A stretch of 64,000 bases of DNA from Roseibacillus sp. (GTDB taxonomy: Bacteria; Verrucomicrobiota; Verrucomicrobiia; Verrucomicrobiales; Akkermansiaceae), in the NCBI GenBank assembly GCA_028821775.1, contig JAPKFB010000002.1, positions 62,001 to 126,000 on the forward strand, read 5' to 3'. The notes beneath the pieces are model-generated. The model made no database searches. It had not been told where the DNA came from and worked only from the letters and a program-made list of their open reading frames with translations. Of this stretch, positions 28,561 to 52,791 are shown in pieces. A program made the translations under genes and the position numbers. The stretch's first letter is position 1, and every line of letters starts with the position of its first letter.

Positions 28561-31500
28561 ATGAGCAAACGCATCTGGCAACATCCGGACATTCCCGTTG
28601 AAGAGACGGAGATTACCTCGTGGCGGAGTGTGGGCGAGTTGGAGAAGAGTCCTGCCTTCCAGGAGCATCTCGAACGCGAATTCCCCAAGGGCTCCGGCCA
28701 TTTGAGCGAGGAAGAGCGCGAAAGTTCGCGCCGCGGATTTCTCAAGCTCATGGGGGCCTCTTCGGCCCTGAGCGGGCTGGCCTTGGTTTCCTGCCGTCGC
28801 CCCGAGTCCTACATCGTCCCTTACAAGAAGGCCCCCGAGTGGGTCATCCCCGGCAAGCCGCTTTTCTATGCTTCGACCCGCCCCACCGCGGAAGGGGGAG
28901 TGCCTCTGGTGGTGACGACCTTCGAAGGCCGGCCGACCAAGCTCGAAACCAATCGGGAGCATCCCGATGGCGGGGCCAGCGATGCGCTGACCCAAGCTTC
29001 CGTTCTCAACCTCTACGATCCCAATCGCTCCCGGATCTTCCTGAACAAAGGGAAAAAGTCTTCGCGGAAGGCATTTTCGAAAGCATTGACCGGGATCGCG
29101 AAGGAGCCTGGCAAGATCGCGATTCTGGTGGGGGAGGACGACAGTCCGACCCGCAATCGACTGCGCGACGAGCTCAGGAGCGCCTACCCCGCGGCGAAGT
29201 TTTTCAGCTACGAAGCGTTGCGCGGCGCAGGCCGACGCACTGCCAACAACGCGGTCTTTGGAAGCGGGAGCGATGACGGGTGCGAAGTGACCGTCGACTT
29301 TGAAAAGGCCGACCGGATCCTCTCCCTCGACTGTGATTTCCTTGGTGTTGATCCGCACGGAAGCGCAGTAGAATTCTCGAAGCGACGCCAGGGTGGTGGT
29401 TCCGACTACAAGCACAACATCGCGGCGGATAAGATGAATCGCCTCTACATGGTCGAGACTGCCTTCAGTTTGACCGGAGGCATGGCCGATCACCGCCTGC
29501 GTTCCAAGCCGAGCGAGATTCTGCTGGTGGCGGTTGAGATCGCGCGCAAGATCGAGAATGCGGATCAGCTTTCGGCTGAGGCGAAAAAGGAGCTCAACGG
29601 GATCACGAAGAATTTCGAGATCCTCGACGGAGGCTACTTTTTCGGTGGCAACCCCAAGGATTTCTCTGCTTGGGTGAGCGAATGTGCCACTGACCTGCTG
29701 AAGAATGCGGGCAAGTCGCTTGTGCTGGCCGGAAGTCGTCACAACGAAGAATTGCAGCGTCTCGCAATCGCGATGAACAAAGCCCTCGAGGCCTACGGCG
29801 CCGGCGCTCCGCTCCAGGGAGTGCAGACCGGTCGCGAAGGCTACGGCACGCTTCAGGATTTTCAGGGCTTCGTCGGTTCGGATACCACGGTTTTCCTCCT
29901 TGGGCCCGCCAACCCGGTCTATGACACGCCGGGTGATGAGTTTGAGAAGGCGCTCGCGAGTGCCAAGCAAAGCATTCACCTCGGGCTGCGCACGGACGCC
30001 ACGGCCAATGCCTGCACCTGGCATGTTCCGGCCGCTCACTACCTTGAGAGCTGGAGCGATGCCCGAAGCGCGACCGGAGTTTACTCCCTGCTACAGCCCA
30101 TGATTTTGCCTCTCTACGATGGCGTTTCCGAGATCGAGCTCCTCTCGCAGCTGCTCACTTGGAAAGACGTGGACTGGGCCAAGGTCGCGAGTGGAGATGA
30201 GAAGGCTCCTCTCCTGATCAGTGGCGAAGGTCCCAAGGGCGCGGCCTCCCCGGCCTACAACGAAGTGCGCAGCACCTTCGCCGAAATCGGCGAGGAAGGG
30301 GACACGGCTTGGAAGGAAGCTCTAAAAAATGGTTTCCTGGCAGGCAGCGAATACGCCAGCGCCGATCCCGGCGAAGTGGGCGATGTCACGAAGCCTGCGG
30401 AAACAGAGGGCCTCGAAGTGAACTTTTTGGCGGACGCCTCGATCTGGGACGGTCGCTACATCGACAACGGCTGGCTGCAGGAAGCGCCGGATCCAATTTC
30501 GAAACTTTCCTGGGACAACGCGGCCCTCGTTTCGCCCAAGACGGCGAAGGAGCTGGGGGTCTACGACGCCATTCAAGAACTCGAGCCGGAGAGCAATTTC
30601 CCGATCGTGGGCAAGGTGAAGAATGCGCCCAAGCCCCTCATCGGCGAGGGCGGAAATGCCCGGGCTCCGATGGCGGAAATCACGACTTCGGCGGGCCGGA
30701 TGCAGGTTCCCGTGCTGGTGGCCTTTGGGCACGCCGACGACTGCATTTCGATTGCGGTCGGTTACGGACAGGGTGCATCAGATGGGCGCGATGGTACGGT
30801 CGTTGCTCGCGAGAAGGATCCCTTCGCAGTGGTCGGACTGGTCGGGATCAATGCCGGGTTCAACGCCAACGCCATTCGAGGAGAGGGCTTCAGCGCCAAG
30901 GTCGAGAAGGTTGAGAAGCTCAAGGCGAAGTATCCAGTCGCACTCGTGCAGGAGCACAACGCGATGAACGGTCGTGCACTTGCGCGCGAGGTTTCCACCA
31001 ACGAAGTCAATCACCACGGGCACCCAAGATCCTTCGAGAACCAGGTCAAGAACGTGGCCAAGCAAGGCCCGGTCGACTCCCACGCCCCGGAAAACATCTC
31101 CCTCTACAAGCGCAAGGGTTCGGCTTGGGAAGATGATGAGGACAAGCAGGCCGATCTCATCAGTGACAAGATTCACCAGTGGGGGATGGCGATTGACCTC
31201 AACACCTGTCTGGGTTGTAACGCCTGTCTGGTAGCCTGCCAGGCCGAGAACAACATTCCGATCGTCGGTAAGGAGCAGGTCGCGATGGGTCGCGAGATGC
31301 ACTGGATCCGGATGGACCGCTACTTCGCCACTCCGACTTATGAGCGCGATAGTCACGGCGACGTTGCGAAGGAGAACGGCACCAAGAACAAGATCAAGGT
31401 GCCGGCCTGGGTGTTCGAAAACCCCGAGTTTGTCCCCCAGCCGGTGGCCTGCATGCATTGCGAAAATGCTCCCTGCGAAACAGTGTGCCCCGTGAATGCC

Positions 31501-32148
31501 ACGGTGCATACCGAGGAGGGCCTGAACGCGATGGCCTACAACCGCTGTATCGGCACGCGCTACTGCGCCAACAACTGCCCCTACAAGGCGCGCCGTTTCA
31601 ACTTTTTCGATTACAACAAGAACAACCCGCTCATCGACCACAACCTCTACAAGGGCCCGTTTGCGGAGGCCAAGGTGGGCGATGCGCCGCACTTGCAGCG
31701 CAACCCGAACGTCTCGGTTCGCATGCGCGGGGTGATGGAGAAGTGCACTTACTGTGTGCAACGTCTCGAAAGCGCCAAGATCAAGCAAAAGCAGATCGGC
31801 CGCCAGAAGACCCTCAAGGCGGGAGCCCATTCGACCGCGGTGGCCGTGAGTGCAGATGACCTGCGCATCAAGGTCGACTCGGTGCGCACCGCCTGTCAGG
31901 ACGCCTGTCCAACGCAGGCAATCAGCTTTGGCAATATTCTCGACGTGAAAAAATCGCAGGTCTGGTGGGCCAAGAATACTGACCACCAGCAGAAAGACGG
32001 GAATTTCGCTCCCAATCCGCGCAACTATAGCGTCCTGCAATATGTCGGCACCGTGCCACGGACCACCTACCTGGCACGCGTGAAAAACCCCAACCAAGCC
32101 ATGCCCGACGCGAAATATCGCGGGCTTGCTACCATCCACACGGCCTAA
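28561..32148 (+). CDS. actB: Alternative complex III subunit ActB, molybdopterin-type iron-sulfur protein
   Basis: A 1195-residue fusion of a molybdopterin-oxidoreductase-like domain and a ferredoxin domain. The variant Tat signal is RRGFLKLMG at residues 57-65, as annotated for this family (TAT-variant-translocated). The C-terminal part has fifteen Cys in cluster-binding groups: C883/886/889/893, C964/967/972/976, C996/1002/1006, C1062/1065 and C1112/1116. That number suits three [4Fe-4S] and one [3Fe-4S] cluster, as known for ActB. In characterised ACIII the large domain holds no molybdenum. It receives electrons from quinol at ActC and passes them to the ActA hemes. Encoded 12 bp before actC. 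Confidence 0.95.
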   Translation: MSKRIWQHPDIPVEETEITSWRSVGELEKSPAFQEHLEREFPKGSGHLSEEERESSRRGFLKLMGASSALSGLALVSCRRPESYIVPYKKAPEWVIPGKPLFYASTRPTAEGGVPLVVTTFEGRPTKLETNREHPDGGASDALTQASVLNLYDPNRSRIFLNKGKKSSRKAFSKALTGIAKEPGKIAILVGEDDSPTRNRLRDELRSAYPAAKFFSYEALRGAGRRTANNAVFGSGSDDGCEVTVDFEKADRILSLDCDFLGVDPHGSAVEFSKRRQGGGSDYKHNIAADKMNRLYMVETAFSLTGGMADHRLRSKPSEILLVAVEIARKIENADQLSAEAKKELNGITKNFEILDGGYFFGGNPKDFSAWVSECATDLLKNAGKSLVLAGSRHNEELQRLAIAMNKALEAYGAGAPLQGVQTGREGYGTLQDFQGFVGSDTTVFLLGPANPVYDTPGDEFEKALASAKQSIHLGLRTDATANACTWHVPAAHYLESWSDARSATGVYSLLQPMILPLYDGVSEIELLSQLLTWKDVDWAKVASGDEKAPLLISGEGPKGAASPAYNEVRSTFAEIGEEGDTAWKEALKNGFLAGSEYASADPGEVGDVTKPAETEGLEVNFLADASIWDGRYIDNGWLQEAPDPISKLSWDNAALVSPKTAKELGVYDAIQELEPESNFPIVGKVKNAPKPLIGEGGNARAPMAEITTSAGRMQVPVLVAFGHADDCISIAVGYGQGASDGRDGTVVAREKDPFAVVGLVGINAGFNANAIRGEGFSAKVEKVEKLKAKYPVALVQEHNAMNGRALAREVSTNEVNHHGHPRSFENQVKNVAKQGPVDSHAPENISLYKRKGSAWEDDEDKQADLISDKIHQWGMAIDLNTCLGCNACLVACQAENNIPIVGKEQVAMGREMHWIRMDRYFATPTYERDSHGDVAKENGTKNKIKVPAWVFENPEFVPQPVACMHCENAPCETVCPVNATVHTEEGLNAMAYNRCIGTRYCANNCPYKARRFNFFDYNKNNPLIDHNLYKGPFAEAKVGDAPHLQRNPNVSVRMRGVMEKCTYCVQRLESAKIKQKQIGRQKTLKAGAHSTAVAVSADDLRIKVDSVRTACQDACPTQAISFGNILDVKKSQVWWAKNTDHQQKDGNFAPNPRNYSVLQYVGTVPRTTYLARVKNPNQAMPDAKYRGLATIHTA

Positions 32149-32160
32149 CCCTGAGAACTC

Positions 32161-33654
32161 ATGGCAGACGCCGCAACCAAGACCACGAGTGAGTCGTCCG
32201 CGCCGCGGGAAGTGAAGCTTCCTGTCCTCGAGCGCGAGAAGCTCATCCTCAACAAACGGTCCTACCACTGGATCACGGAGCGAGTGTGCGGCGTGGTCGA
32301 GAACAAGCAGCCTGCGATCTGGTGGGCCTTGTTCATCCCGGCTGTCATCATGGCGGTGGTCGGGGTGGGGGGCGGTCTCATCTACCTCATCACCACCGGA
32401 GTCGGAGTGTGGGGGAACACCAACCGCGTGATGTGGGGATGGCCGATCGTGAACTTCGTGTTCTGGATTGGAATCGGTCACGCCGGAACACTGATCTCGG
32501 CGATTCTTTTCCTGACCCGTCAGAATTGGCGGACGTCCATCAACCGCGCGGCGGAGGCCATGACGATTTTCGCGGTGATCTGCGCGGGCATCTTCCCGGC
32601 CTTCCACGTGGGACGGGTCTGGATGGCCTGGTATCTCGCGCCTATCCCGAACGCGAATGCGATCTGGCAGAATTTCAAGTCGCCGCTGCTCTGGGACGTC
32701 TTCGCAGTCTCGACCTACTTCTCCATCTCCCTGGTCTTCTGGTTCCTCGGAATGGTGCCGGACCTCGCGACCATTCGCGACCGGTGCAAGAACGGAGTGA
32801 AGAAGATGCTCTACGGTATCTTTTCTCTCGGATGGCGCGGCAGCAACCGCCACTGGAGCCACTACGAGATGGCTTACCTCCTCCTGGCCGCCCTTTCCAC
32901 CCCGCTTGTGCTCTCGGTGCACTCGGTGGTGAGTTTCGACTTCGCAACCTCCATCGTGCCCGGTTGGCACACCACGATTTTCCCTCCCTATTTTGTGGCC
33001 GGTGCCGTCTTCGGCGGTTTTGCGATGGTGCTCACCATCATGATTCCGGCACGCCTCATTTATGGCCTGCAGGACATGATCACGATGAAGCACATCGACA
33101 ACATGGCCAAGATCATCCTCCTGACGGGATCGATCGTGGGCTATGCCTACCTGATGGAGCTCTTCGTGGCCTTCTACTCGGGGGCCGAGTATGAAATGAA
33201 GGCCTTCACTTACCGCATCACCGGTCCCTACTGGTGGGCTTACGTCTGCATGATGAGCTGCAACGTCCTTTCTCCACAGCTCTTCTGGTTCAAGTGGTGC
33301 CGCGAAAACCTCTGGGTCGTGATGGGAGTCTGCATGTGTGTGAACGCCGGCATGTGGTTTGAGCGCTTCGTCATCATCGTGACCACCCTAGCGCGGGACT
33401 TCATGCCCGCCAACTGGAAGTATTACAACCAGAGCTGGGTCGACATAGGCCTCTTCCTCGGCACGATCGGCTTGTTTCTTTCGCTCTTCCTCCTCTTCCT
33501 GCGCTTCCTGCCCTGCATCAACATCGCAGAGGTCAAATGGGCCAAGGAAGAGAGCGACGTGCACCACGACGACAAGAAGGCTCATCCCGATCCGGGAGCG
33601 GTCGTGGAGCCCGCTTACCAGCACGAACTTGAGAAAGGAACTGCCGAAGTCTGA
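32161..33654 (+). CDS. actC: Alternative complex III subunit ActC, NrfD-like quinol-binding protein
   Basis: A 497-residue integral membrane protein of the NrfD/PsrC family with about ten TM helices. ActC forms the quinol site and possible proton path of ACIII. Recognisable segments include [10 protein letters not shown] near the N-terminus, [13 protein letters not shown] in TM2-3 and [11 protein letters not shown]. The stop codon overlaps the start of actD (TGATG), implying coupled translation. The C-terminal tail is hydrophilic and charged. Confidence 0.94.
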
Positions 33655-34211
33655 TGAGTACAACCGTCAAACGCGTTTACGGCTACCTCGCCGAGTTTGA
33701 AAGCGCATCCTCCCTCTACAAGGCGTCTGAAAAAGTACGCGACGCGGGATTCCGCAAGTGGGATTGCTACACGCCCTATCCAGTCCACGGCTTGGACGAT
33801 GCGATGGGAATCAAGCGCTCGATTCTTCCCTACTTTGTGTTCTTCGGAGGGCTGACCGGACTCGCGACCGCCTTCTTCCTCGCCTACATCACCCAGGTGG
33901 GAATCTACCCCACGGTGGTGCAGGGCAAGCCGGCCAACATCTTCACGGTGCCGGCCTTCTTCCCGATCATGTTTGAGCTCACCGTGCTCTTCTCGGGATT
34001 TACCACTTTGTTTGGTTTGTTGGGTCTCTGCCAACTCCCTCGCTGGAACCACCCGCTCTTTGCGAGCCGGCAGTTCCACCGGAGCACGGATGACGGGTTT
34101 TTCATCGCGATTGAAGCGCGTGACCCCAAGTTTTCGGCAGAAGGAACGAAGGGCTTCCTCGATGAAATCGGCGGCGCCAATATCGAATTGGTCGAAGACG
34201 ACGGAAACTAG
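33654..34211 (+). CDS. actD: Alternative complex III subunit ActD (DUF3341)
   Basis: A 185-residue DUF3341 protein, the ActD subunit of ACIII. The soluble N-terminal part begins VYGYLAEFESASSLYKASEK and has the DCYTPYPVHGLDDAMG motif typical of the family. Two TM helices follow (about 60-85 and 102-125). The role is structural within the membrane arm. Its start overlaps the actC stop by one base, and actE follows after 12 bp. Confidence 0.94.
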   Translation: MSTTVKRVYGYLAEFESASSLYKASEKVRDAGFRKWDCYTPYPVHGLDDAMGIKRSILPYFVFFGGLTGLATAFFLAYITQVGIYPTVVQGKPANIFTVPAFFPIMFELTVLFSGFTTLFGLLGLCQLPRWNHPLFASRQFHRSTDDGFFIAIEARDPKFSAEGTKGFLDEIGGANIELVEDDGN

Positions 34212-34223
34212 ACTGACGATCCC

Positions 34224-34913
34224 ATGAAGTTTTTCTTCCTCGCCTTCCTCGGAATGATCACCCTTGCCATCGGCATTCTGGGCTTCCGCGGAGATAAATT
34301 CAGCCAGACCCCGATCGAGATCTTCCCGGACATGGACCGACAGGATTTCCTGAAGGGGCAAAAGCCCAGCGACTTTTTCCACGATGGCATGGGAGCCCGC
34401 CTCCCGGTTGCCGGCACCGTTCCGCATTCCAGTGATGATGGCATTTTTCCGGTCGAGTTCAGCGAGGGCCGCACCGGTCACTACTACTCCGGGGCGATCA
34501 ACGATTATTTCGCGACCGGGCTTCCCCTCGAGAAGCTCGGGCTGACGGGGGACTCTGCGGCTGATGAAATGCAGAGCCTTCTGCGGCGCGGGCAAGGACG
34601 CTTCGGAATTTATTGCGCCATCTGCCATGGTCATGGAGGTGATGGCACCGGCACGGTCAGTCGCTACATGGCCGCCAAGGTGGCCAACCTGCACGAGGCG
34701 CGCTTCGGAGCGGACCAGTATCCGGACGGCAAAGTCTATCACGTCATTACGCACGGACAGGGACTCATGAGCGGCTACGGCGCCAACATCCCGGTGCGTG
34801 ATCGCTGGGCCATCGTCGCTTACCTGCGTGCCCTGCAGGAGTCGAAGAAGGCTCCTGCGGATGCGCCCGCCGCGCCTGAAAACACTGAAACGGCGGGAGG
34901 CGCCTCTAACTGA
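34224..34913 (+). CDS. actE: Alternative complex III subunit ActE, monoheme cytochrome c
   Basis: A 229-residue protein with an N-terminal hydrophobic segment (MKFFFLAFLGMITLAIGILG) and one heme c motif, CAICH, at residues 131-135. A Met ligand is likely in the GLMSGYGANIP segment. In ACIII, ActE is a periplasmic lipid- or helix-anchored cytochrome that accepts electrons from ActA and may deliver them to the oxidase. I see no lipobox Cys here, so a TM anchor is more likely. It precedes actF by 8 bp. Confidence 0.92.
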   Translation: MKFFFLAFLGMITLAIGILGFRGDKFSQTPIEIFPDMDRQDFLKGQKPSDFFHDGMGARLPVAGTVPHSSDDGIFPVEFSEGRTGHYYSGAINDYFATGLPLEKLGLTGDSAADEMQSLLRRGQGRFGIYCAICHGHGGDGTGTVSRYMAAKVANLHEARFGADQYPDGKVYHVITHGQGLMSGYGANIPVRDRWAIVAYLRALQESKKAPADAPAAPENTETAGGASN

Positions 34914-34921
34914 TTACCGGT

Positions 34922-36235
34922 ATGGGACACATGGTTACATCGGCAGACATTCCGGTCGACGGCGAGAAGATCGACGGGAACAAGCTTCAACGGATCCGGA
35001 CCATCTGTGGTGGGATCATGGTCGGCGGGATCGCGATCAGTTTTCCGATCCTGATCGCCGGCATGTTCGTGTCGGATAAGGCGCAGGGTTCCTACGCCTA
35101 TTCCTGGCTCTACGCCTTCTTCTTCTTCACCACCCTTTCGCTGGGCGGATGCTTCTGGACCCTCCTTCACAACGTCTCCAATTCGGGCTGGGGTGTTTCG
35201 GTACGCCGGGTGATGGAGAATGTGGGCTTCGTCTTTCCGTTCATGATCGTCTTTGCGATCCCGTTCCTCTTCCCGCAGGTGCAAGAGTTCCTCTACGAGT
35301 GGATGGCCGGTCATCGCAGCGTTCCGGACAACACGGCCCTTGAGGACCACCTTCACCACACCAATCACCTCCTCTACTTGAAGCGTTGGTTCCTCAACAT
35401 CCCCTTCTGGTATGTGCGCTTCTTTGGCTACTTTGCCATCCTCGGGCTTGTTATCTATCGGCTGCGCAAACTCTCGATTGATCAGGACAATGATCCGAAT
35501 CCCGGCACCAAGCGACTCATCCGGGCGCGGCGCGATTCCTCCTGGGGAGTGCCCGTCTTCGCCTTGGTGCTGACCTTCCTCTCCATCGACTTGGTGAAGA
35601 CCCTCGACTACAAGTGGTTCTCCACCATGTGGGGGGTCTACATTTTCGCGGGCAGCGCGCTCAACTCGATGGCGGTCATCATCCTGGTCACGATCGCCCT
35701 GCGTCGCATGGGATACCTGAAGAACGTGGTGGGTCCGGAACATGATCACCTGATGGGTAAGCTCGCCTTCGCCTTCACCGTCTTCTGGGCCTACATCTCC
35801 TTCGACCAGTATTTCCTGATCTGGTACGCCAACATCACGGAAGAGACTCGTTACTTCATCCTGCGAAACACCGAAGGATGGAACTACGTCAGTCTCGTGC
35901 TGGTCTTTGGTCACTTTGTCGCCCCCTTCCTGCTCTTGATCCGCCAGGACCTGAAGCGCCGGAATGGCTACATGATCATTGTGGCCCTCTACCTCCTTGG
36001 CATGCACATGATCGATGTCTACCACATGATCATCCCGGAACGGGGACCCTCGGTCGGCCTGGTGGTGGACGGCAAACCGGAGCTCTGGCTCAACGGATCG
36101 TTCTTCGGCGACATCATCGCCTTCGTGATCGTGGGTGCCGGCTTCGTTTTCTTCCTTCTGCGAAACATCGCTTCGGCTGCGCTCTATCCGAACCGCGATC
36201 CGCGCATCCTTGAATCAGCCAACGTGCACAACTGA
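34922..36235 (+). CDS. actF: Alternative complex III subunit ActF, NrfD-like membrane protein
   Basis: A 437-residue membrane protein with about ten TM helices, the second NrfD-like subunit of ACIII, related to ActC but with no complete quinol site in known structures. Typical segments are LGGCFWTLLHNVSNSGWGVS near the N-terminus and FWAYISFDQYFLIWYANI in the second half. A second in-frame ATG lies three codons in (MGHM), so the precise start is uncertain by nine bases. The stop codon overlaps the start of the next cytochrome gene (TGATG), tying the ACIII genes to the downstream module. Confidence 0.93.
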   Translation: MGHMVTSADIPVDGEKIDGNKLQRIRTICGGIMVGGIAISFPILIAGMFVSDKAQGSYAYSWLYAFFFFTTLSLGGCFWTLLHNVSNSGWGVSVRRVMENVGFVFPFMIVFAIPFLFPQVQEFLYEWMAGHRSVPDNTALEDHLHHTNHLLYLKRWFLNIPFWYVRFFGYFAILGLVIYRLRKLSIDQDNDPNPGTKRLIRARRDSSWGVPVFALVLTFLSIDLVKTLDYKWFSTMWGVYIFAGSALNSMAVIILVTIALRRMGYLKNVVGPEHDHLMGKLAFAFTVFWAYISFDQYFLIWYANITEETRYFILRNTEGWNYVSLVLVFGHFVAPFLLLIRQDLKRRNGYMIIVALYLLGMHMIDVYHMIIPERGPSVGLVVDGKPELWLNGSFFGDIIAFVIVGAGFVFFLLRNIASAALYPNRDPRILESANVHN

Positions 36236-36999
36236 TGGACTCGGCGAAAGACAATCCTCTCAAGCGATTTTCCAGCTTCTGGCTGGGGCTGATCATCTTT
36301 GCCTCCTTCGGGTTGCTGAGTCTCCTGCTTGGCCTGTGCTTCAAGAAGCCCATCAATAATGCCTACGATGAGCACAACGCGAATCGGCGTCAGGAAATCA
36401 GAACCGAAGTGGATGCCGCTCACGCGGGAGCCAGGAAGGCTGCCGTCAAGAGCTTCGAGAAGGTAGGAGCCACCTTGCTCGCCGCCACCGTGGGTGCAGT
36501 GGAGAAGCCTGAGTTCATTCTTCCCGGCTCCGCCATGGCGAAGGAGAAGGCGGCCGCCGGTAATACGGGCATCGAAGTGCCTGCTGACTTTCCCAAAGTC
36601 GCTGCCGACGCTCCGGTGGACCCGGCCATGATGGATGAAGGCAAGGTGCTCTATTCAACCTGTCTTGCCTGCCACGGTCCCGACGCGAACGGAGTTCTCA
36701 ACCTCGGACCGCCCCTGGCGGGATCAGAATGGGTCGCGGGCCCGGTGGAGAACCTGATTGCAATCCAGTTGCGTGGAATGTTCGGACCGATCGAAGTGAA
36801 GGGGACGACCTACACCCCGGTCGCTCCCATGGCGCCGCTGGCCTTTCAGACCGATGATCAAATCGCGGCCGTGCTCACTTATGTCCGCAATAGTTTTGGG
36901 AACAAGGCTTCTCCGGTCACTGCCGAGCAGGTCAAAGCGATGCGGGGTGAGGTTGGCAAGCCGATGCTGAACCCGACTCAACTCCTTCCCCTCAAATAA
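36235..36999 (+). CDS. Membrane-anchored monoheme cytochrome c, copy 1
   Basis: A 254-residue protein with one N-terminal TM helix (about 15-37), an Ala/Lys-rich linker and a C-terminal cytochrome c domain with CLACH at residues 143-147. The C-terminal domain is clearly paralogous to that of the second cytochrome at 39259 (shared LAGSEWV, then VKG-TY, then FVRN/YVRN-FGN). It starts inside the actF stop codon, so it is translated with ACIII. The likely role is to carry electrons between ACIII and the downstream oxidase modules. A similar position is occupied by mono-heme cytochromes in other ACIII-oxidase clusters. Confidence 0.88.
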   Translation: MDSAKDNPLKRFSSFWLGLIIFASFGLLSLLLGLCFKKPINNAYDEHNANRRQEIRTEVDAAHAGARKAAVKSFEKVGATLLAATVGAVEKPEFILPGSAMAKEKAAAGNTGIEVPADFPKVAADAPVDPAMMDEGKVLYSTCLACHGPDANGVLNLGPPLAGSEWVAGPVENLIAIQLRGMFGPIEVKGTTYTPVAPMAPLAFQTDDQIAAVLTYVRNSFGNKASPVTAEQVKAMRGEVGKPMLNPTQLLPLK

Positions 37000-37018: not shown

Positions 37019-38509
37019 ATGCCTACTGACGACATAGCGTTTCAAAAGGATTCCGAACTCCGGGCCAAGATCGACCGGTCGCTCCGGCATCCCGTGATGT
37101 TCTTCTTCGCAAGCGGTGCCACCTGGCTAGCGCTCTCCCTGCTCCTCGGATTCATCTCCTCCGCCAAGGCCCACTCGCCAACCTTCCTCGATGGCTGTGG
37201 TTTTCTGAGCTACGGTCGGGTCTATGCAGCGCACCTCAACTTGCTCGTCTACGGATGGGGCTGTCAGGCGGCTTTTGGTCTCGTGATCTGGCTCATGGCC
37301 CGCCTTTCCCGCAAGGAGTGCTCCGCAGTCGGGATCATCCTGACCGCTGGTCATGTCTGGAACTTCGGAGTGCTCGTCGGGTTTCTCGGGATCATCGCAG
37401 GATATGGCACCGGTAAGCCGTGGATGGAGTTTCCTGTCGCGGTCTGGCCCATGCTCCTGCTGAGTTACCTTTTCATCACGGTTTGGTCCTTTGTGCAGTT
37501 CCGCTGCAGTGAGGGTGGGAAGATCTACGTCGCGCAATGGTATCTCGTAGCCGCCCTTTTCTGGTTCCCCTGGATTTTCCTGACCGCTCACCTCTTCGTC
37601 TTCGTCTTCAACGGTCACCCGGTGATGGCGGCCGCCGTGAATGCCTGGTTCAAGTATGCCCTCATATTCCTCTTCTTCACTCCGGTGGCGCTCGGGACCG
37701 CTTACTACCTGGTTCCCAAAGTGACGGGGCGTCCAATCTACAGTTACGCGCTCGCCCTCTTCGGTTTTTGGGCCCTGGCTGTGATCGGTCCCTGGGCTGG
37801 GATGCAGCGACTGGCGGGTGCGCCCCTGCCACAGTTCATGCCCTACCTTGGTGCGGCGGCCACCATTCTCATTCTTATTCCCGCCCTCGCCGTTGGGGTC
37901 AACATCATCATGACCATTCGCGGTCACGAAGACGCCGTCTCCGCCAGTCCTTCTCTTCGATTCGCCTTGGGCGGGATTGTTTCCTTCCTGACCTTGGGAG
38001 TGCTTGGATTGGTTCTCAACACTCCGGGAACCTTGAAACTCACCCAGTTCAGCCTGACCGGTTATGGCTACGAGATTCTCGCCATTTACGGCTTCTTCAG
38101 CATGTGCGCCTTCGGGGGGATCTACTTTATCGTCCCACGCATCACCCGTCGGGAATGGCTCTCGCGCCGCTTCATCAGCTGGCACTTCTGGCTCACCGTC
38201 TATGGTGTGGGCACGGTGGTGGTTTGCTCGATCATGGGCGGACTTTTCCAAGGCCAGGCTCAGGAAGCCTATGGTAGCGCCTGGATGGATGCCGCAACGC
38301 GCAGCTACGCCTACAACATCGGCACCACGATTGCCTGGAGCTTCATTCTCTTCGGAAGTATCTTCTTTCTCCTGCATCTCCTCCTTATGTGGGCGCGCCT
38401 CGGTCGGCGCAGCCAACACCCGACACTCTTGAAGGTTGATGATCACCACGAAGCCTCCCCCCACGGGCCCGAAGGGGACCTCGACGAACTCCAATCCGCG
38501 GAAGCCTGA
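37019..38509 (+). CDS. CcoN-like protein (cbb3 oxidase subunit I homologue) lacking catalytic ligands
   Basis: A 496-residue protein with about twelve TM helices and clear collinear similarity to CcoN, including GYGTGKPWMEFP, AYYLVPKVTGRPIYSYALAL and FWALAVIGPWAG. By hand alignment H72 keeps the first low-spin heme ligand, but the CuB histidines are absent: the YGHN position reads FKYA (212-213), and the HH pair after WAGP reads QR (263-264). The late HxH that ligates both hemes reads Y-E-I (351-353). It therefore should not reduce oxygen. It lies between two paralogous cytochromes and before a CcoO-like gene. It may be a structural or electron-transfer subunit of an ACIII-oxidase supercomplex. 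The role is inferred. Confidence 0.85.
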   Translation: MPTDDIAFQKDSELRAKIDRSLRHPVMFFFASGATWLALSLLLGFISSAKAHSPTFLDGCGFLSYGRVYAAHLNLLVYGWGCQAAFGLVIWLMARLSRKECSAVGIILTAGHVWNFGVLVGFLGIIAGYGTGKPWMEFPVAVWPMLLLSYLFITVWSFVQFRCSEGGKIYVAQWYLVAALFWFPWIFLTAHLFVFVFNGHPVMAAAVNAWFKYALIFLFFTPVALGTAYYLVPKVTGRPIYSYALALFGFWALAVIGPWAGMQRLAGAPLPQFMPYLGAAATILILIPALAVGVNIIMTIRGHEDAVSASPSLRFALGGIVSFLTLGVLGLVLNTPGTLKLTQFSLTGYGYEILAIYGFFSMCAFGGIYFIVPRITRREWLSRRFISWHFWLTVYGVGTVVVCSIMGGLFQGQAQEAYGSAWMDAATRSYAYNIGTTIAWSFILFGSIFFLLHLLLMWARLGRRSQHPTLLKVDDHHEASPHGPEGDLDELQSAEA

Positions 38510-38514
38510 TCCCC

Positions 38515-39240
38515 ATGTCGTTCAAAGCATTCACGCTCGCATTGATGTTCAGCTTCGGAATCCCGTGGCTCATGATCATCGTGGTTCCGTTTTCCAAAAT
38601 GCGGCATGTTGAGCCGATATACTTCACCGAAGAGGCCGATGGGAGAGACGACGTCTACGTCCCGCGCCGCGCCGGACGGATCGCCAATGGTGCGGCGATC
38701 TATGCTGCGAATGGTTGTTACATCTGTCACACCCAGTTGATTCGACCCAGCTTCGCAGGCTCTGAACTTGGGCGCCCCGGATGGGCCGGGTTCAAGGAGC
38801 AGGACGATGCGGGCATTCCTGTCGATACCCGTCGCGAAACAACTCCCTTCGACTATGTGGGCGAATCGTTTGCACAGATCGGCCTCATGCGGAACGGTCC
38901 CGACCTCAGCAATGTGGGCGGACGGATCGAGCGCTATGTCAAGGAGGACGATGCCGATGCCAAGACCCCGGAAAACTGGCTCTTCCTGCACCTTTACGAC
39001 CCCCGCAAGAAGGTGAAGGCCTACTGGTCGACTTGTCCCTCCCAGGCACATCTTTTCACCACCAGGAACGTCTACGGCCAAGGAAGCCCGGATGCCGTGC
39101 CCGGCTTGGGTGGGGAGGGGGAGGAAGTCCTGCCCACCGACCAGGCGCTTGCCTTGGCAAGTTATCTCATCTCCATGAAGAAGGATGATGCAGTGCCCTA
39201 CTCCATCAACTACAGACGCGACAAGAAGAAGGCCGAATAA
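38515..39240 (+). CDS. CcoO-like monoheme cytochrome c (cbb3 subunit II homologue)
   Basis: A 241-residue protein with one N-terminal TM helix (about 5-27) and a heme c motif CYICH at residues 68-72 in the CcoO-typical context GCYICHTQLIRP. The second CcoO signature, GPDLSNVGGR, carries the region before the Met ligand. It starts 5 bp after the CcoN-like gene. Its own heme site looks intact even though its partner lacks the oxidase centre, so the pair may pass electrons without reducing oxygen. No CcoP or CcoQ gene follows. Confidence 0.87.
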   Translation: MSFKAFTLALMFSFGIPWLMIIVVPFSKMRHVEPIYFTEEADGRDDVYVPRRAGRIANGAAIYAANGCYICHTQLIRPSFAGSELGRPGWAGFKEQDDAGIPVDTRRETTPFDYVGESFAQIGLMRNGPDLSNVGGRIERYVKEDDADAKTPENWLFLHLYDPRKKVKAYWSTCPSQAHLFTTRNVYGQGSPDAVPGLGGEGEEVLPTDQALALASYLISMKKDDAVPYSINYRRDKKKAE

Positions 39241-39258: not shown

Positions 39259-40041
39259 ATGGCCGATTCCAACCAACCTGCCGATTCCAAGCGACCCGAT
39301 CTCGAGGAGAGCACCAACGTGGCTGAGACTCACGCTTCTCTCATCGAGGGTGGAGTTGCGCAGGCTCGCGAGAAGCGGATCAAGGAAACCGGAATGGAGC
39401 CGGTCTCCCTCTGGGTGATTTTGGCCAGCGCGATCGTGCTTCTGGTCGGTGGCTCCGTGATCGGGGCAGGCGGGAAACTCCTCGCCTACAGTCCGCATCC
39501 CCAAGGATATATCCGGGCCGATTTTCCGACTGGTGGGAATGATGGGCCGACCAGTGGCCCGATCTATGATGCCCTCTTCAAGCGTGGTCAGAAGCTCTTT
39601 GCAAAGTGCAGTGGGTGTCATGGATCCACTGGCGAGGGCAACGCCGGATTTCCTCCCCTGGCGGGCTCTGAGTGGGTGCAGGGAAATACCGAACGCTTTG
39701 CCATGATCGTTCTGAATGGCCTGAAGGATCCCATCACGGTGAAGGGCAACACCTATAATGGCAGCATGCCTTCCCAAGCTCCCCTGACTGCGACTGAACT
39801 TGCCGCCCTGATGACTTTTGTCCGCAACAATTTTGGCAACGCGATGGGCGACATCGTGACTCCCGAGCAGGCAGCGGCCGCCCTGGAAATCCAGAAGTCG
39901 CGTCCCGCTGGTCAGCAGATTACCGCTGATGAACTGAACGCCACCCACGACCAGATGCTGGAAGGCGATCCCATTGATCCCACCACGGTAGTGGATTTTG
40001 AGACTCTTGAGCCCGTGGAAGATCCCCCAGGAGTAAAATAA
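39259..40041 (+). CDS. Membrane-anchored monoheme cytochrome c, copy 2
   Basis: A 260-residue protein with an acidic cytoplasmic N-terminus, one TM helix (about 50-70) and a cytochrome c domain with CSGCH at residues 117-121. Its heme domain is paralogous to the cytochrome at 36235. The C-terminal extension after residue 205 is Gln- and Asp-rich and unique to this copy. It is the gene just before COX subunit I. Since COX subunit II here has no fused cytochrome domain, this protein is a good candidate for the direct electron donor to CuA. Confidence 0.88.
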   Translation: MADSNQPADSKRPDLEESTNVAETHASLIEGGVAQAREKRIKETGMEPVSLWVILASAIVLLVGGSVIGAGGKLLAYSPHPQGYIRADFPTGGNDGPTSGPIYDALFKRGQKLFAKCSGCHGSTGEGNAGFPPLAGSEWVQGNTERFAMIVLNGLKDPITVKGNTYNGSMPSQAPLTATELAALMTFVRNNFGNAMGDIVTPEQAAAALEIQKSRPAGQQITADELNATHDQMLEGDPIDPTTVVDFETLEPVEDPPGVK

Positions 40042-40061: not shown

Positions 40062-41951
40062 ATGAGTGCAGAAGCGGCCGCAGATCACGGTGATCATGAT
40101 CACCATGACGAACACCACCACGAACTTCCCTTCTACAAGAAGTACATCTGGTCGACGGATCACAAGGTGATCGGGATTCAGTATGGCATTACGGCCCTGC
40201 TCTTCCTCGCCTTAGGGTTCTATCTCATGATGGTGATGCGATGGAGCATCGCCTATCCTGAAGAGCCCCTTCCGAGTTGGATGAGCTGGGTTTTCAGTGA
40301 TGAGTGGAAAGCGCGTTGGCTGCAGGACGGTCGCGTGACGGGGGATACCTACAACATGTTCGGGGCCATGCACGGAACGATCATGGTGTTCCTCGGGATT
40401 GTGCCCTTGGGATTTGCCGCTTTCGGAAACTTCGTCACTCCGCTCCAGATTGGGGCGGTCGACATGGCCTTTCCGCGTCTCAACATGATCAGTTACTGGT
40501 GCTATCTTGTCGGTGGCTTGATCATGGTCGGAAGCTTCTTCATGGAGTCCGGCGCGGCCAAGTCCGGATGGACGAACTACTCGCCTCTTGCAAACTTCGC
40601 GGATGGGCAAATTGTGAACCAGTTTCTGGCGGGGCAGACCCAGTGGCTGCTGGGCATGGTCTTCCTGATTTCCTCCTCGCTCCTCGGGGCGGTGAACTTC
40701 CTGACCACCATCATCAACCTGCGGGCCAAAGGCCTGACTTGGATGCGTCTGCCCTTTTTTGTCTGGGCCATGTTGGTGACCGGATTCCTCCTTCTCCTCG
40801 CCTTTCCTCCCCTTGAAGTTGCGGCCTTGATGCAGCTCATGGACCGGACCGTCGGTTCGAGTTTCTTCCTGCCCAGCGGCCTCTACACTTCGGGTGCGGG
40901 GATCATCGAAGCTTCTGGGGGTGGTAGTCCGCTTCTCTATCAGCACCTCTTCTGGTTCCTCGGACACCCCGAGGTGTATGTCCTCCTCCTTCCCGCAATC
41001 GCCTGCGTGGCGGAAGTGATTCCAGTCAACACTCGAAAGCCTCTGTGGGGATACAAGCCCATGGTCTGGTCGATTCTCATCCTTGGCTTCCTGAGTTTCG
41101 TGGTGTGGGCCCACCACATGTATCTCACCGGCATGGGACCGGTGGTTTCGACCTGGTTCCAGACCACCACCGTTCTCATCTCGGTGCCATCGGTCATCCT
41201 GCTGACTTCCATGGTGGTCTCGCTCTGGGGCGGCTCCATTCGATTCAATGTGCCCATGCTCTGGGCGTTGGCCTTCCTTCCCATGTTTGGAATTGGGGGG
41301 CTTACCGGATTGCCGCTGGCCTTCAACCTGGTCGATCTGCACCTGCACGACACCTATTACGTGATTGGGCACTTCCACTACGTGGTGGCTCCCGGAGTGC
41401 TCTTCGGCCTCTTTGCGGGAGTGTATCACTGGTATCCCAAGGTTACGGGCCGCCACCTGGACACGTTCCTGGGGCACCTCCACTTCTGGCCCTCGCTCAT
41501 CTTCATGAACATGCTCTTCTTTCCCATGCTGGTGCAGGGAATGGCGGGCTTCCACCGTCGGTGGTACAATGGGGGAGACGCCTATCTCTCCAAGGCTGAG
41601 GACAGCGTCAACGTGTTCGGGAACACGGTGGCAGAGTGGATCTACCTCAACCCCGTCATGTCCTGGGGCGCCTGGCTGCTCGCCTTGTCGCAGATCCCGT
41701 TCGTCATCAACTTTATCGCATCCATCTGGGTCGGCAAAAAGATCAAGAACGACAATCCCTACGACGCGACCACCCTCGAATGGGCCACTCCCACGCCTCC
41801 ACCGCACGGGAACTTCACTTTTGACATCGCGGTTTTCCGCGGTCCTTACGAATACAGCCGCGATGATCACGAAGGAGATTTCTTCCCGCAGTGGGAAGAG
41901 CCCAAGAGAGACAAACCGGCTGAGGTCCCCGTCGAAGAACCCACCCGCTAA
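40062..41951 (+). CDS. coxA: Cytochrome c oxidase subunit I (aa3-type)
   Basis: A 629-residue heme-copper oxidase catalytic subunit with all ligands: the low-spin heme His in GAMHGTIMVF, the CuB/Tyr motif FWFLGHPEVYVLLLP, the HH pair in VVWAHHMYLTG, and the HxH in YYVIGHFHYVVAPG. The EVY tyrosine marks a type A oxidase. The N-terminus is His-rich and acidic (about 17 residues), a possible metal-binding tail. It reduces oxygen to water and pumps protons. It is followed by subunit III, IV and II genes; subunit II comes last, which is an unusual order. Confidence 0.97.
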   Translation: MSAEAAADHGDHDHHDEHHHELPFYKKYIWSTDHKVIGIQYGITALLFLALGFYLMMVMRWSIAYPEEPLPSWMSWVFSDEWKARWLQDGRVTGDTYNMFGAMHGTIMVFLGIVPLGFAAFGNFVTPLQIGAVDMAFPRLNMISYWCYLVGGLIMVGSFFMESGAAKSGWTNYSPLANFADGQIVNQFLAGQTQWLLGMVFLISSSLLGAVNFLTTIINLRAKGLTWMRLPFFVWAMLVTGFLLLLAFPPLEVAALMQLMDRTVGSSFFLPSGLYTSGAGIIEASGGGSPLLYQHLFWFLGHPEVYVLLLPAIACVAEVIPVNTRKPLWGYKPMVWSILILGFLSFVVWAHHMYLTGMGPVVSTWFQTTTVLISVPSVILLTSMVVSLWGGSIRFNVPMLWALAFLPMFGIGGLTGLPLAFNLVDLHLHDTYYVIGHFHYVVAPGVLFGLFAGVYHWYPKVTGRHLDTFLGHLHFWPSLIFMNMLFFPMLVQGMAGFHRRWYNGGDAYLSKAEDSVNVFGNTVAEWIYLNPVMSWGAWLLALSQIPFVINFIASIWVGKKIKNDNPYDATTLEWATPTPPPHGNFTFDIAVFRGPYEYSRDDHEGDFFPQWEEPKRDKPAEVPVEEPTR

Positions 41952-41974: not shown

Positions 41975-43765
41975 ATGGAGATCCCCTATACCGTAACTGC
42001 CCGGAAGGATACCGGCCTCTTCAACGCGAAGGTTGGCATCTGGCTCTTCCTCGCTTCCGAAGTGATGCTCTTTGGGGGCCTCTTTTCGGGCTACGTTTTT
42101 TTGCGGATTTACGCAGACTATCCCTGGCCTGAGCGCGCCTTGCCGGTGTTGCCTGGTCTCATCAACACCTTCGTCCTGATCGGTTCTTCGGTCACCGTGG
42201 TCTTTGCCTGGGCGGCGCTCAAGATGCGACAATGGCGGCGCTTCCAGTTCTTCATGGCCATCACGATTGCCTGCGCGGGAATATTCATGGTCCTCAAGGG
42301 CCTCGAGTACAACGCCAAGTGGAATCACCAGGCGGTGCGCATGGATGACTTCACGATCGTGGAAGGGCACACCCACAAGGCGGTGATTGATGAGGATGGC
42401 CACTTTCACGAAGTCCATGAAGGAGACGATCCCCATGGCACGCCCTTCAAGGCGAACGCGGTGATCTTCAAGGCCGAGAGGGTGAGCTTCTCACTGGTCC
42501 GTGCCCACGAGTCCTGGATCGACTCGATGCTTTCCCAAGCCGAAGAGCGCCACTCGAAATTGGTGGCCCAGAAGCAGAAGGGAACGACCGGGATCTTCCT
42601 CTATGGAGCTCTCGTGGATTTCGAAGCGGATGCCGACAAGCGCAAGGCCGCCGAGGAAGATATCGTCAAGGAATACCAGACCGCCGAAAAGATCGCGCGG
42701 AAGATTGGGGAAAAATCGCTCTACATTCCGGACGGGACGCCACTGAGCTACGCCTTGCTGAAGAAGGCCCGCGAAATCTTCATCGCGGGGCGTGCCCACA
42801 ACGCCGAGATCCGCACCGGGATTCTGAGGACCAAGTGGAAGGATGCTCACGCGAATCATCCCGACAAGGGCAACTGGGAGATCGCGGACGAGGCCAAAAT
42901 TACTCCCGAGGACACCGCCGGACAGATTGTGAAGGTCCTCTCCACGCTGGCCTTCGAGATGGATCCTCCGGTTCCGCTGGTACTCAATCGCAGTTGGATC
43001 AAGCGGCCCATTCCGGCCAAGGCGGAGCAAGCAGAGCTGCGGGATGACACCACGCTCGCCGGGGCACTGCAGGACAGCCCACTGGCTCTCGCGGTCGATG
43101 CGGTGGATTTCCGCTGGATGGCTCAAAAGGCGGTCGAGGCCGACAAGGATCCCATGAAGGTCATTGAGAGCAGTTGGATTTTCTCGGACAAGAATGAACA
43201 CGCCGCCGAATACAAGAAGCTTTGGAAGATGCACAAGAAGCGCATCGAGAAGCTCGAGGAGCACCTCGTCGAGAAATACAAGAGAGACAAGCTGGGTAAT
43301 CCCAAGCGCGTTTCCACCGAGACCGAACGCTACCGGATGGGCTGGAAGGATTTACTGCAATACGCCAAGGCCGAGGAGGAAGGAGTCTTCCCTGGAGAGG
43401 AGAAGTTCGATGATCTTCGTCCAAGCATGACGGACGGGTTCACGGGACCGGATCACAAGAACGCGGATGTCAAGAGACTCCACGCCTTCCCCGAATTGAA
43501 GGTTCCCCACGAGAAGGTTGCCATGGCCTCGGCCTTCACCCCCAAGTGGAACACCTACTACGCGATCTACTTCACTCTCACCGGACTGCACGGACTGCAC
43601 GTGATCGGCGGAGCACTCGTGTTGGGCTACTATCTCCTCTTCAGTAAGGGGCTCTACCGCCAAAATCCCGAGTGGCTTGCCAACCGGGTGGAAGTGGGCG
43701 GTCTCTTCTGGCACTTCGTTGATCTCGTCTGGATCTTCCTCTTTCCGATCCTCTACCTCATGTAA
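41975..43765 (+). CDS. coxC: Cytochrome c oxidase subunit III with a ~400-residue inserted domain
   Basis: A 596-residue protein; bacterial subunit III is normally about 190-300. Residues 1-117 give three TM helices of the family, including WLFLASEVMLFGGLFSGY and the LKGLEY end of a helix. Residues about 526-596 resume the family with YFTLTGLHGLHVIGG and two TM helices ending in VEVGGLFWHFVDLVWIFLF. The intervening 400 residues are hydrophilic and charged, begin His-rich (HTHKAVIDEDGHFHE), and are unlike any COX III I know. By family topology this loop faces the periplasm. Both flanks are in frame with uniform codon use, so it is not an assembly join. Confidence 0.9.
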   Translation: MEIPYTVTARKDTGLFNAKVGIWLFLASEVMLFGGLFSGYVFLRIYADYPWPERALPVLPGLINTFVLIGSSVTVVFAWAALKMRQWRRFQFFMAITIACAGIFMVLKGLEYNAKWNHQAVRMDDFTIVEGHTHKAVIDEDGHFHEVHEGDDPHGTPFKANAVIFKAERVSFSLVRAHESWIDSMLSQAEERHSKLVAQKQKGTTGIFLYGALVDFEADADKRKAAEEDIVKEYQTAEKIARKIGEKSLYIPDGTPLSYALLKKAREIFIAGRAHNAEIRTGILRTKWKDAHANHPDKGNWEIADEAKITPEDTAGQIVKVLSTLAFEMDPPVPLVLNRSWIKRPIPAKAEQAELRDDTTLAGALQDSPLALAVDAVDFRWMAQKAVEADKDPMKVIESSWIFSDKNEHAAEYKKLWKMHKKRIEKLEEHLVEKYKRDKLGNPKRVSTETERYRMGWKDLLQYAKAEEEGVFPGEEKFDDLRPSMTDGFTGPDHKNADVKRLHAFPELKVPHEKVAMASAFTPKWNTYYAIYFTLTGLHGLHVIGGALVLGYYLLFSKGLYRQNPEWLANRVEVGGLFWHFVDLVWIFLFPILYLM

Positions 43766-43774
43766 TCACTGGTC

Positions 43775-44152
43775 ATGGCTGACACACCCGAAGAAATCAA
43801 GAAAGCGCAGAAGAAGTATCTGCTCATTGGCCTGATTCTGTTTGCCTTCACCATTGTGACGGTGGCAGTGGCCACCGTCCCTGCACTCGATTTCGGCAAA
43901 CACGGATTCGATACCTGGGATGCGATCATTGGTCTCTGCATCGCCTCCGTGAAGGCGACGCTCGTGGCTCTGATTTTCATGCACCTCAATCATGAGAAGA
44001 AGAGCATCTATCTGTTCATCGTGCTCGGTGTTCTCGGGGGGCTCTCCCTCATCGGGCTCACGGGCTGGGCATTCATCGATCCCATCGAGTATGGCACCGC
44101 CACCGAAGGGAATGGCTTTTTTAACCCGGAGATGGTAATCGAGGAGGAATAG
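43775..44152 (+). CDS. Cytochrome c oxidase subunit IV family protein
   Basis: A 125-residue protein with three TM helices, matching the bacterial COX subunit IV (CyoD/CtaF-like) family. The typical signature is IGLCIASVKATLVALIFMHL around residues 50-69. It helps assemble or stabilise the CuB centre of subunit I. It lies 9 bp after subunit III. The C-terminal tail is acidic. Confidence 0.88.
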   Translation: MADTPEEIKKAQKKYLLIGLILFAFTIVTVAVATVPALDFGKHGFDTWDAIIGLCIASVKATLVALIFMHLNHEKKSIYLFIVLGVLGGLSLIGLTGWAFIDPIEYGTATEGNGFFNPEMVIEEE

Positions 44153-44370: not shown

Positions 44371-44568
44371 ATGAACCACGAGATACTGCAACTTGCCTGC
44401 GCCACCTGCGCGAAGTCCTTCCAGGAGGGAGGAGGTGATGCTGCAGGGTGGTCCATCCTCTTCCTTCTGGCCATCATCGTGCCGGTGCTCGGAGCGACCG
44501 GGATCTGCATGGTGCGCATCGTGCGTCGCGAACGCGCGGCCCTGGATCCGAAGTACATGGACCAGTAA
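44371..44568 (+). CDS. Small single-helix membrane protein in the oxidase cluster
   Basis: A 65-residue protein: an N-terminal segment with a CATC motif (residues 10-13), a Gly-rich turn, one TM helix (about 27-50) and a basic then charged tail (RIVRRERAALDPKYMDQ). The ATG at 44371 was chosen because it begins the protein-like part; the frame upstream overlaps the previous gene. Its family is unknown. The two Cys could bind metal or form a disulfide. It is likely an oxidase accessory subunit. Confidence 0.65.
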   Translation: MNHEILQLACATCAKSFQEGGGDAAGWSILFLLAIIVPVLGATGICMVRIVRRERAALDPKYMDQ

Positions 44569-44588
44569 TTCAAATACGTTTTCATACA

Positions 44589-45401
44589 ATGCCAATGATG
44601 GATTTACTTTCGGCTGTCTGGGGTACCCCGGAGAACTTTTCGGAACACGGTGGCAGCGTGGATCACCTCATCGAAGTGGTGCATTGGTTCATGCTCGCAC
44701 TCTTCGTGGGTTGGACCGGCTTCTTCCTGATTGCCTGCTGGGTTTTCTGGCAGCGTCGTCATCCCAAGGCCTCCTATAGCGGGGTTAAGAACCACGTGAC
44801 CACTCACCTCGAGATCGGAGTGGCCATTTTTGAAGCGGTGCTTCTTCTGGGCTTTGCCTTCCCCTTGTGGGCGGAACGGACCGATCGATTTGAAACGATT
44901 CAAGCCCAGGACCCGGTGCGAGTGCGCGTGATTGGATACCAGTTTGGTTGGAACTATCACTATCCCGGGGCGGACGGAAAGTTCGGGCGCATCAACCGCC
45001 ACCTCGTGAAAAGTGCCGGCGATCCCTGCATCGATCCCGAAGATCCCAACGGCTGGGATGATTTCACCTCCCCCATTCTCAAGGTGCCCGTCAAGGAGCC
45101 CTGCATCTTGCAGGTGACGTCCACCGATGTCATTCACGCCTACGCGATTGTACCCATGCGCATCCAGCAGGATGCCATTCCCGGAACCGACATTCCGATG
45201 TGGTTCAAGCCCCTCAAGGAGCTTGAGACCAGTGTGGTGTGCGCCCAGCTTTGTGGCGAAGGTCACGGCGATATGGTGGGCGTGATGGAAGTGATCAGCG
45301 GCAATTCGTATTCGTCCTGGTCCAAGGAGCAGAGCGCCGGCGCCCTCGAGCGCAATACGCCCAAGGACGAGCCTGAAGGAGAACCTGTGGCTGCGAAATA
45401 G
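44589..45401 (+). CDS. coxB: Cytochrome c oxidase subunit II, CuA-containing
   Basis: A 270-residue protein with two TM helices (about 30-53 and 77-95) and a cupredoxin domain. The CuA ligands are H183 (VIHAYAIVP) and the motif CAQLCGEGHGDM with C218, C222, H226 and M229. The usual aromatic electron-entry segment is FGWNYHYPG. There is no C-terminal cytochrome c domain, so this is an aa3 rather than caa3 arrangement. The start at 44589 places the first TM helix normally. It ends the respiratory cluster. Confidence 0.95.
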   Translation: MPMMDLLSAVWGTPENFSEHGGSVDHLIEVVHWFMLALFVGWTGFFLIACWVFWQRRHPKASYSGVKNHVTTHLEIGVAIFEAVLLLGFAFPLWAERTDRFETIQAQDPVRVRVIGYQFGWNYHYPGADGKFGRINRHLVKSAGDPCIDPEDPNGWDDFTSPILKVPVKEPCILQVTSTDVIHAYAIVPMRIQQDAIPGTDIPMWFKPLKELETSVVCAQLCGEGHGDMVGVMEVISGNSYSSWSKEQSAGALERNTPKDEPEGEPVAAK

Positions 45402-50986: not shown

Positions 50987-51318
50987 CGGTGGAGAAGTTG
51001 CGACAAATTGAGGGGATTGGCAGGTTTTTTTTCGGGAGCGACGGCAGAACTTTGCGTTGGTCTCACCCGCGGTGCGAGGGTGCAGATTGAAAACGGGGCC
51101 AAGGAGAGAGGCGGAAAGGAGCAGCGAGGGGCAGAGAGGGCGGGCGGAAGGCCAGTTCGAAATAGTTGGGCACGCCCATTGGTAGAAATGTTGCGGCAAA
51201 TTGAGGGGATGCGCAGGATTTGTTTTGGGGAGGGGACGATGAATTTTCCGCGGGCTTGCTTCGTCTCATCTGGAAGCTAGAACTGTTGAACGACCTGACC
51301 TCTTTTCAGGCCTCATCG
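50987..51318. repeat. Divergent intergenic region with a duplicated leader segment
   Basis: The 332 bp between two divergent transporter operons hold an imperfect direct repeat of about 60-80 bp. Copy A (about 50984-51060) abuts the oppA-like start; copy B (about 51172-51265) lies 188 bp away, near the plus-strand operon. Both share CAAATTGAGGGGAT, a GCAGG plus T-rich tract, and a GGAG-GACG segment. On the minus strand each is followed by an ATG. No separate gene is evident. Confidence 0.6.
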
Positions 51319-52788: not shown

Positions 52789-52791
52789 GCG

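Follow-up and report, generated by a model that had tools for sequence, protein, structure and literature searches.

A degenerate CcoN encoded behind ACIII in Roseibacillus: repeated loss of heme-copper ligands at one operon position and a proposed structural role

The window, a stretch of 64,000 nucleotides from a Roseibacillus genome, carries on its forward strand a run of genes in the order actABCDEF, monoheme cytochrome c, N', O', P', CoxA, CoxC, CoxD and CoxB. In what follows, N' denotes a degenerate CcoN, and O' and P' the CcoO-like and CcoP-like proteins; the window's family is the Akkermansiaceae (f1). The genes are listed here with the basis of each assignment.

27843..28556, + strand: actA, a pentaheme cytochrome with five CxxCH (motif count)
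28561..32148, + strand: actB, a molybdopterin-like and Fe-S subunit (partial NCBIfam matches to QrcB, QrcC and TIGR04519)
32161..33654, + strand: actC, an NrfD-like membrane subunit (order and conserved cluster)
33654..34211, + strand: actD (order and conserved cluster)
34224..34913, + strand: actE, a monoheme cytochrome c (Pfam)
34922..36235, + strand: actF (order and conserved cluster)
36235..36999, + strand: extra monoheme cytochrome c between actF and N' (Pfam, motif)
37019..38509, + strand: N', a degenerate CcoN (profile, PDB-sequence, ligand-alignment and fold comparisons)
38515..39240, + strand: O', a CcoO-like monoheme cytochrome c (Pfam, NCBIfam, motif)
39259..40041, + strand: P', a CcoP-like monoheme cytochrome c, presumed Met ligand kept (Pfam, alignment)
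40062..41951, + strand: CoxA of an aa3 oxidase, ligand motifs present (Pfam, NCBIfam, motifs)
41975..43765, + strand: CoxC with a large insertion (Pfam)
43775..44152, + strand: CoxD-like protein (order and conserved cluster)
44448..45401, + strand: CoxB with the CuA motif CAQLCGEGHGDM (Pfam, NCBIfam, motif)

Among the best 80 Akkermansiaceae loci, ActF was one of the two matches upstream of N' in 74 and CoxA one of the four downstream in 68, and the extra cytochrome c has one CxxCH in all 76 Akkermansiaceae homologues found. A preliminary description of this DNA spoke of a complete aa3 oxidase; CoxA (WFLGHPEVY, HH and GHFHY) and CoxB do have the expected motifs, but CoxC, a protein of 596 residues, has its two COX3 stretches set apart by the insertion. 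The CoxC frames of relatives measure 455-624 residues in f1 and f2 and 270-295 in f4. Elsewhere in the window (51220-54462) two peptide-transporter-like permease genes seem, by eye, to contain long extra in-frame segments.

N' and the adjacent CoxA are the only two COX1 proteins of the genome, and no bd oxidase was matched in its 94.5% complete assembly; the aa3 enzyme is therefore the only intact terminal oxidase found there. Another contig carries one open frame with the N-terminal domain of cytochrome b, which makes a bc-type complex possible, so that ACIII need not be the organism's only complex III. The succession of ACIII genes and an aa3-type oxidase resembles that of the ACIII-aa3 and ACIII-caa3 supercomplexes of Flavobacterium johnsoniae and Rhodothermus marinus, for which the accessible parts of two papers describe direct electron transfer (PMC5928083; PMC8552683). 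Unlike these, the window has an N'-O'-P' module between ACIII and the oxidase, and its arrangement is known from genes; the gene order suggests that this module, too, may sit in a supercomplex.

N' is a single open frame of 496 codons, lying exactly where the preliminary description had placed it, and its homology to CcoN, proposed there from collinearity, is certain. The protein matches Pfam COX1 at 4.2e-46 and the TIGR00780 ccoN model at 1.6e-30, the latter with 106.5 bits against the NCBIfam equivalog cut-off of 583; two full-ligand ACIII-linked forms reach only 234 and 254 bits on this model. Five CcoN sequences in the PDB match N' at 3e-26 to 1e-21, and in a phmmer alignment residues 31-459 pair with a CcoN chain of known structure. 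An AlphaFold2 model built from 70 aligned proteins (mean pLDDT 85.4, pTM 0.87) superposes on CcoN 3mk7_A with TM-scores of 0.83/0.88 and an rmsd of 2.7 Å at 21% identity, and the fold of N' is thus that of CcoN. Length, the N-O-P gene order and the PK..GRP.YSY and WAG segments are likewise common to N' and CcoN of the C-family cbb3 oxidases. NorB, of nitric oxide reductase, also has the COX1 fold (4xyd, 3o0r), as a weaker fold match. NorB has its set of His ligands in common with other heme-copper enzymes, and since these are missing in N', a NOR-like enzyme is ruled out.

The ligand columns were read against L088, a canonical fused CcoNO from a relative in the phylum. The seven heme-copper positions of N' are H72, Y213, G257, Q263, R264, Y351 and I353, in an order that we take to be TM2 heme-b His, CuB His, cross-linking Tyr, CuB His-His, heme-b3 His and TM10 heme-b His; all were placed by the ligand alignment.

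37232..37234, + strand: codon of H72, the sole retained ligand position (His in all of the best 80 homologues)
37655..37657, + strand: Y213 at the CuB His position
37787..37789, + strand: the glycine G257 at the cross-linking Tyr position
37805..37810, + strand: Q263-R264 at the CuB His-His pair
38069..38077, + strand: Y351-E352-I353 at the H-x-H for hemes b3 and b

Six of the seven positions are lost. This loss, the ccoN score far below the cut-off and, in the Akkermansiaceae, an altered ligand position in O' are what separate N' from CcoN. Only one of the six His ligands of hemes b, b3 and CuB remains, that of the low-spin heme in TM2. The three replacements reported earlier (YGHN to FKYA, HH to QR and H-x-H to Y-E-I) were all recovered, with H72 indeed the sole ligand match; the absence of the active-site cross-linking Tyr is a further loss that had gone unmentioned. 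These replacements are not a matter of chance, since the same pattern runs through the best 80 Akkermansiaceae homologues: Q263 is present in 74, Lys or Arg at position 264 in 71 and Asp or Glu at 352 in 78, and at position 353 all 80 have Ile, Val, Leu or Met, never His. The preliminary description had allowed that histidines such as H112, H191 and H200 might turn out to fill the ligand positions. None does, and shifted ligands at H191 and H200 are ruled out, neither being conserved (18 and 52 of the 80, respectively).

H72 and H112, on the other hand, are each present in 80 of the 80, an invariance that exceeds what a pure scaffold would seem to need. It could mean that N' of the window's family still binds one heme b or another cofactor through H72, possibly with H112, and passes electrons. 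Against this stand the consistent lack of His at 353, the Val, Ile or Gly that occupies the H112 column in the other families aligned, and the residues D/E352 and K/R264, which may form a salt bridge that fills the cavity. A different function is brought to mind by the conserved charged residues of the Akkermansiaceae alignment (R15, D19, R20, K234 and E379): as a polytopic membrane protein in a quinol-oxidising cluster, N' might be a cofactor-free subunit that handles ions or quinone, in a role like that of the NrfD-like ActC and ActF. It is, however, for ActC and ActF themselves that this role has been proposed in ACIII, according to the accessible part of PMC5928083, and we consider such a function for N' quite improbable.

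Two features of O' bear on how electrons might pass through the module.

38716..38730, + strand: CYICH heme-c motif of O', residues 68-72 (sequence)
39034..39036, + strand: Cys174 of O', where other families mostly have Met in S-x-M-P (O' alignment)

The S-x-M-P motif of CcoO provides the distal Met ligand of its heme, and we take the Met (or Cys) positions of O' and P' to be distal heme ligands. O' has a FixO domain (PF02433, 36.3 bits against a cut-off of 29.6, the best stretch covering residues 57-78 only); among 72 genomes, 66 have a recognisable O', each with a single CxxCH. The earlier portrayal of an intact CcoO-like partner therefore stands as regards the CxxCH, but not as regards the distal ligand. 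This position is Cys in 15/15 f1 genomes and in 79/79 Akkermansiaceae O' aligned from the best 80 homologues, Met in 16/16 full-ligand members, and Met in 32 of the 36 degenerate members outside f1 (R, R, H and A in the others). The Cys suggests His/Cys ligation of heme c in Akkermansiaceae O', for which a lower potential would be expected, placing O' outside the high-potential chain. P' has one CxxCH wherever it was found, and its presumed distal Met is kept in 149 of 151 aligned sequences, the remaining 2 being gaps. The electron-transfer bridge envisaged in the preliminary description thus fits P'; for O', the idea loses support in the window's own family.

Homologues were sought in 387 genomes of the phylum. 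Matches occurred in 122, of which 93 belong to the window's class, and N' was read in 76 of these 93 (loci L001-L076); of the remaining 17, one (G146) was read later. The same slot behind ActF is occupied in distant families, and in loci reaching far enough ActF stands upstream of N', either adjacent to it or separated from it by a cytochrome c. The exception is L076 (6848-13001, genome G072), where what appears by eye to be a nos-like cluster lies directly upstream of N'-O'-P', consistent with the accessible text of PMC11102522. A further full-ligand CcoN-like type (YYMHQ, IGTHH), branching apart from both cbb3 and N', was met at L087 (5427-6830) and L089 (5390-6802); no ACIII genes were seen near it within the 13 kb fetched.

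The ligand set is complete in 17 of the 76 ACIII-slot proteins and broken in 59; one of those counted as full, L042, is cut by a contig end before its first ligand. Homologues with canonical ligands in the same context had been held in advance to speak against a repurposed module. They exist, yet the loss in the window's protein stands, and they make the probable ancestral working state visible and the losses countable. The broken members display 41 different patterns, among them HSAQKFI, QQGRHQQ, AHSSRRW, FEAADVQ, SESSHFV and AAGVNQQ. This variation by lineage, with the poor conservation of H191 and H200, leaves next to no chance that N' is an active oxidase whose ligands have moved to other positions. 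Two broken members, both of f6, keep the two low-spin-heme His and have lost CuB, heme b3 and Tyr (L023:1462-2946 and L024:1270-2754); 23 have His at the H72 position but not in TM10; and 34 lack His at the H72 position, although one of these, L063, has it in TM10. The f6 pair may represent an intermediate with heme b only, and none of the 22 f1/f2 members examined has lost H72, both of which accord with a bound heme b in the window's family. Neither low-spin His is present in 33 of the 59 degenerate members, however, so that a heme cannot be the general function of N', and we judge a heme-binding N' in the window's family to be unlikely.

How often the ligands were lost depends on the tree consulted. 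The N' tree, computed with the ligand columns removed, needs three losses: one for G172 inside f3, one for f6 and one for the remainder. A tree of ActC/D/F (67 operons, midpoint root, losses only) gives 15, or 12-13 with weak forks collapsed. Holding the full members together was rejected on both trees (p-AU 5e-4 for N' and 2e-49 for ActC/D/F), these p-values being lenient because the groups were named after the trees were seen; on the N' tree, holding together the 57 degenerate rows other than f6 gave a p of only 0.049. The two trees disagree within f5, so that part of the higher count is open to replacement or transfer of N' or to long-branch attraction, which may lie behind it. A single ancient loss is ruled out by the trees and p-AU tests; the independent losses number at least three and may reach a dozen or more.

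Purifying selection on the N' of the window's family is strong, dN/dS (Nei-Gojobori, 15 closest pairs) being 0.027-0.066. The N' distance, expressed relative to that of ActC/D/F, ranges from 2.0 to 5.6 when a full member is paired with a broken one (six pairs), from 0.6 to 1.7 between full members (five pairs) and from 0.7 to 1.2 between broken ones (four pairs), all these pairs having been chosen by hand; the pattern is that of a burst around the loss followed by renewed constraint. Growth of N' distances across a loss is also what one would see if N' were a decaying relic carried along in its operon, as are the fall of one N' (genome G152) to 51.5 bits for COX1 and the single internal TGA in two of the matches listed, genomes G257 (itself full-ligand) and G384. 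But the frames are open in the other matches listed, 75 positions are invariant in 81 N' proteins, the heme motifs of O' and P' are intact, and the dN/dS values rule out a pseudogene in the window's family; a relic is a very remote prospect.

The full-ligand form appears to be a real oxidase. In two genomes that are 99% and 98% complete (G001 and G146), the N' of the ACIII slot is the only COX1 protein and has all seven residues, those of G146 having been read by eye and without its ActF neighbourhood. No bd oxidase was matched in either genome, and since they have no other COX1 protein, the full-ligand form was probably the working ancestor. By comparison, at least one further COX1 protein accompanies the degenerate N' in 49 of 49 genomes (66 were scanned, of which 16 are full and one, G108, is untyped). 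CoxA comes after N' in the same orientation in 24 of the 56 degenerate genomes and in 1 of the 16 full ones; these counts are descriptive, since the 72 genomes are related and their DNA stretches unequal in length. The 24 comprise 12 of 14 genomes of f1 (not G268 and G316), 5/5 of f2, 5/5 of f4 and 2/2 of f15. In the fetched DNA of the other 32 of the 56, some of it short, no CoxA lies beside N'; these include the degenerate genomes of f3, f5, f9 and f16 and the f6 genome G013, and the f11 genome has a CoxB-like neighbour only. The full-ligand genome G257 has an adjacent aa3 oxidase, and a neighbouring aa3 alone therefore does not cause the loss; in another full genome, G322, cox genes lie nearby on the opposite strand.

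We favour the reading, with a probability of roughly 0.6, that N' is a pseudo-oxidase that keeps two monoheme cytochromes in place between ACIII and a further oxidase. Its ancestor would have been subunit I of a functional C-family oxidase whose genes lay immediately after those of ACIII. The active site would have been lost in genomes that had a second heme-copper oxidase at their disposal, which in the window is the product of the aa3 operon immediately downstream. Judged from its residues, N' would neither reduce O2 nor carry the usual heme pair, and it would have stayed as a structural member that anchors the cytochromes c O' and P' near ACIII and the partner oxidase. We infer a physical assembly in which electrons would pass from quinol through ActB, ActA and ActE to P' (and to O' where its Met is kept) and on to CuA of the aa3 oxidase; in f1, to judge from the Cys of O', the main flow may run through P' and the extra cytochrome c. 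The repurposed, non-oxidase CcoN/O module that the preliminary description had suggested beside ACIII and aa3 is supported by this analysis.

The same loss touches organisms whose respiration has been discussed in print. One genome, G152, we take to be Methylacidiphilum kamchatkense Kam1. Its N' (L075) stands at the head of N'-O'-P' behind ACIII and reads SESSHFV in the ligand columns, with none of the seven residues kept. Of its four other COX1 proteins, two score like CoxA; another, at 268 bits, is presumably ba3-like, and one looks NorB-like, these being labels given from score or by eye. A query with canonical CcoN found nothing in G152, G054 or G072; it gave a single weak hit in G265, covering the CcoO part, and a single weak hit in G042, to a longer COX1 protein. 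The ACIII-linked "cbb3 oxidase" of G152, as read here, cannot act as an oxidase; a bd-oxidase subunit I match of 473 bits (G152:C1:832979-834265) could point to another source of high O2 affinity.

In the accessible parts of the literature, by contrast, the Kam1 enzyme figures as a high-affinity oxidase: ACIII is said to share its locus with a cbb3 oxidase, whose type has a very high affinity for O2, and this is tied to the affinity observed (PMC6688271); a cbb3 type is counted among three complexes IV and placed next to ACIII (PMC8498564); and the cbb3 type is listed in two further papers (PMC10205796; PMC11102522). The gene association itself is already in print, since PMC8498564, citing Refojo 2010, records C-type oxidase genes adjoining ACIII in verrucomicrobial methanotrophs and Opitutaceae. 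These occupy the same slot in the same gene order as in the window, but the accessible text calls them cbb3-type and is silent on lost ligands. No expression row for these genes was seen in the accessible part of PMC3404531. Among the titles and abstract openings listed, our search found no report of ligand loss in an ACIII-linked CcoN, although one may be in print in subscription papers (for example Refojo, on ACIII clusters) that lay beyond its reach.

We hold the odds to be even on a broader proposition: that an O2 reductase was converted into a scaffold without cofactors on many separate occasions in one operon slot across the class, that its structural part in an ACIII-N'O'P'-oxidase respirasome predates and outlasts its catalysis, and that the claims of a "high-affinity cbb3 oxidase" for verrucomicrobial methanotrophs rest on a dead subunit. 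The presence of heme-copper subunit I is usually taken to indicate O2 respiration, and that of a cbb3-type gene to indicate high-affinity respiration. In this case such a marker gene persists under selection although its active site is gone, and one of its bearers is a methanotroph whose affinity for O2 was tied to it in print. A simple check of the ligands would prevent false physiological predictions, and the series now available in nature, from all ligands through low-spin heme His only and H72 only to none, offers material for the study of non-catalytic roles of respiratory subunits.
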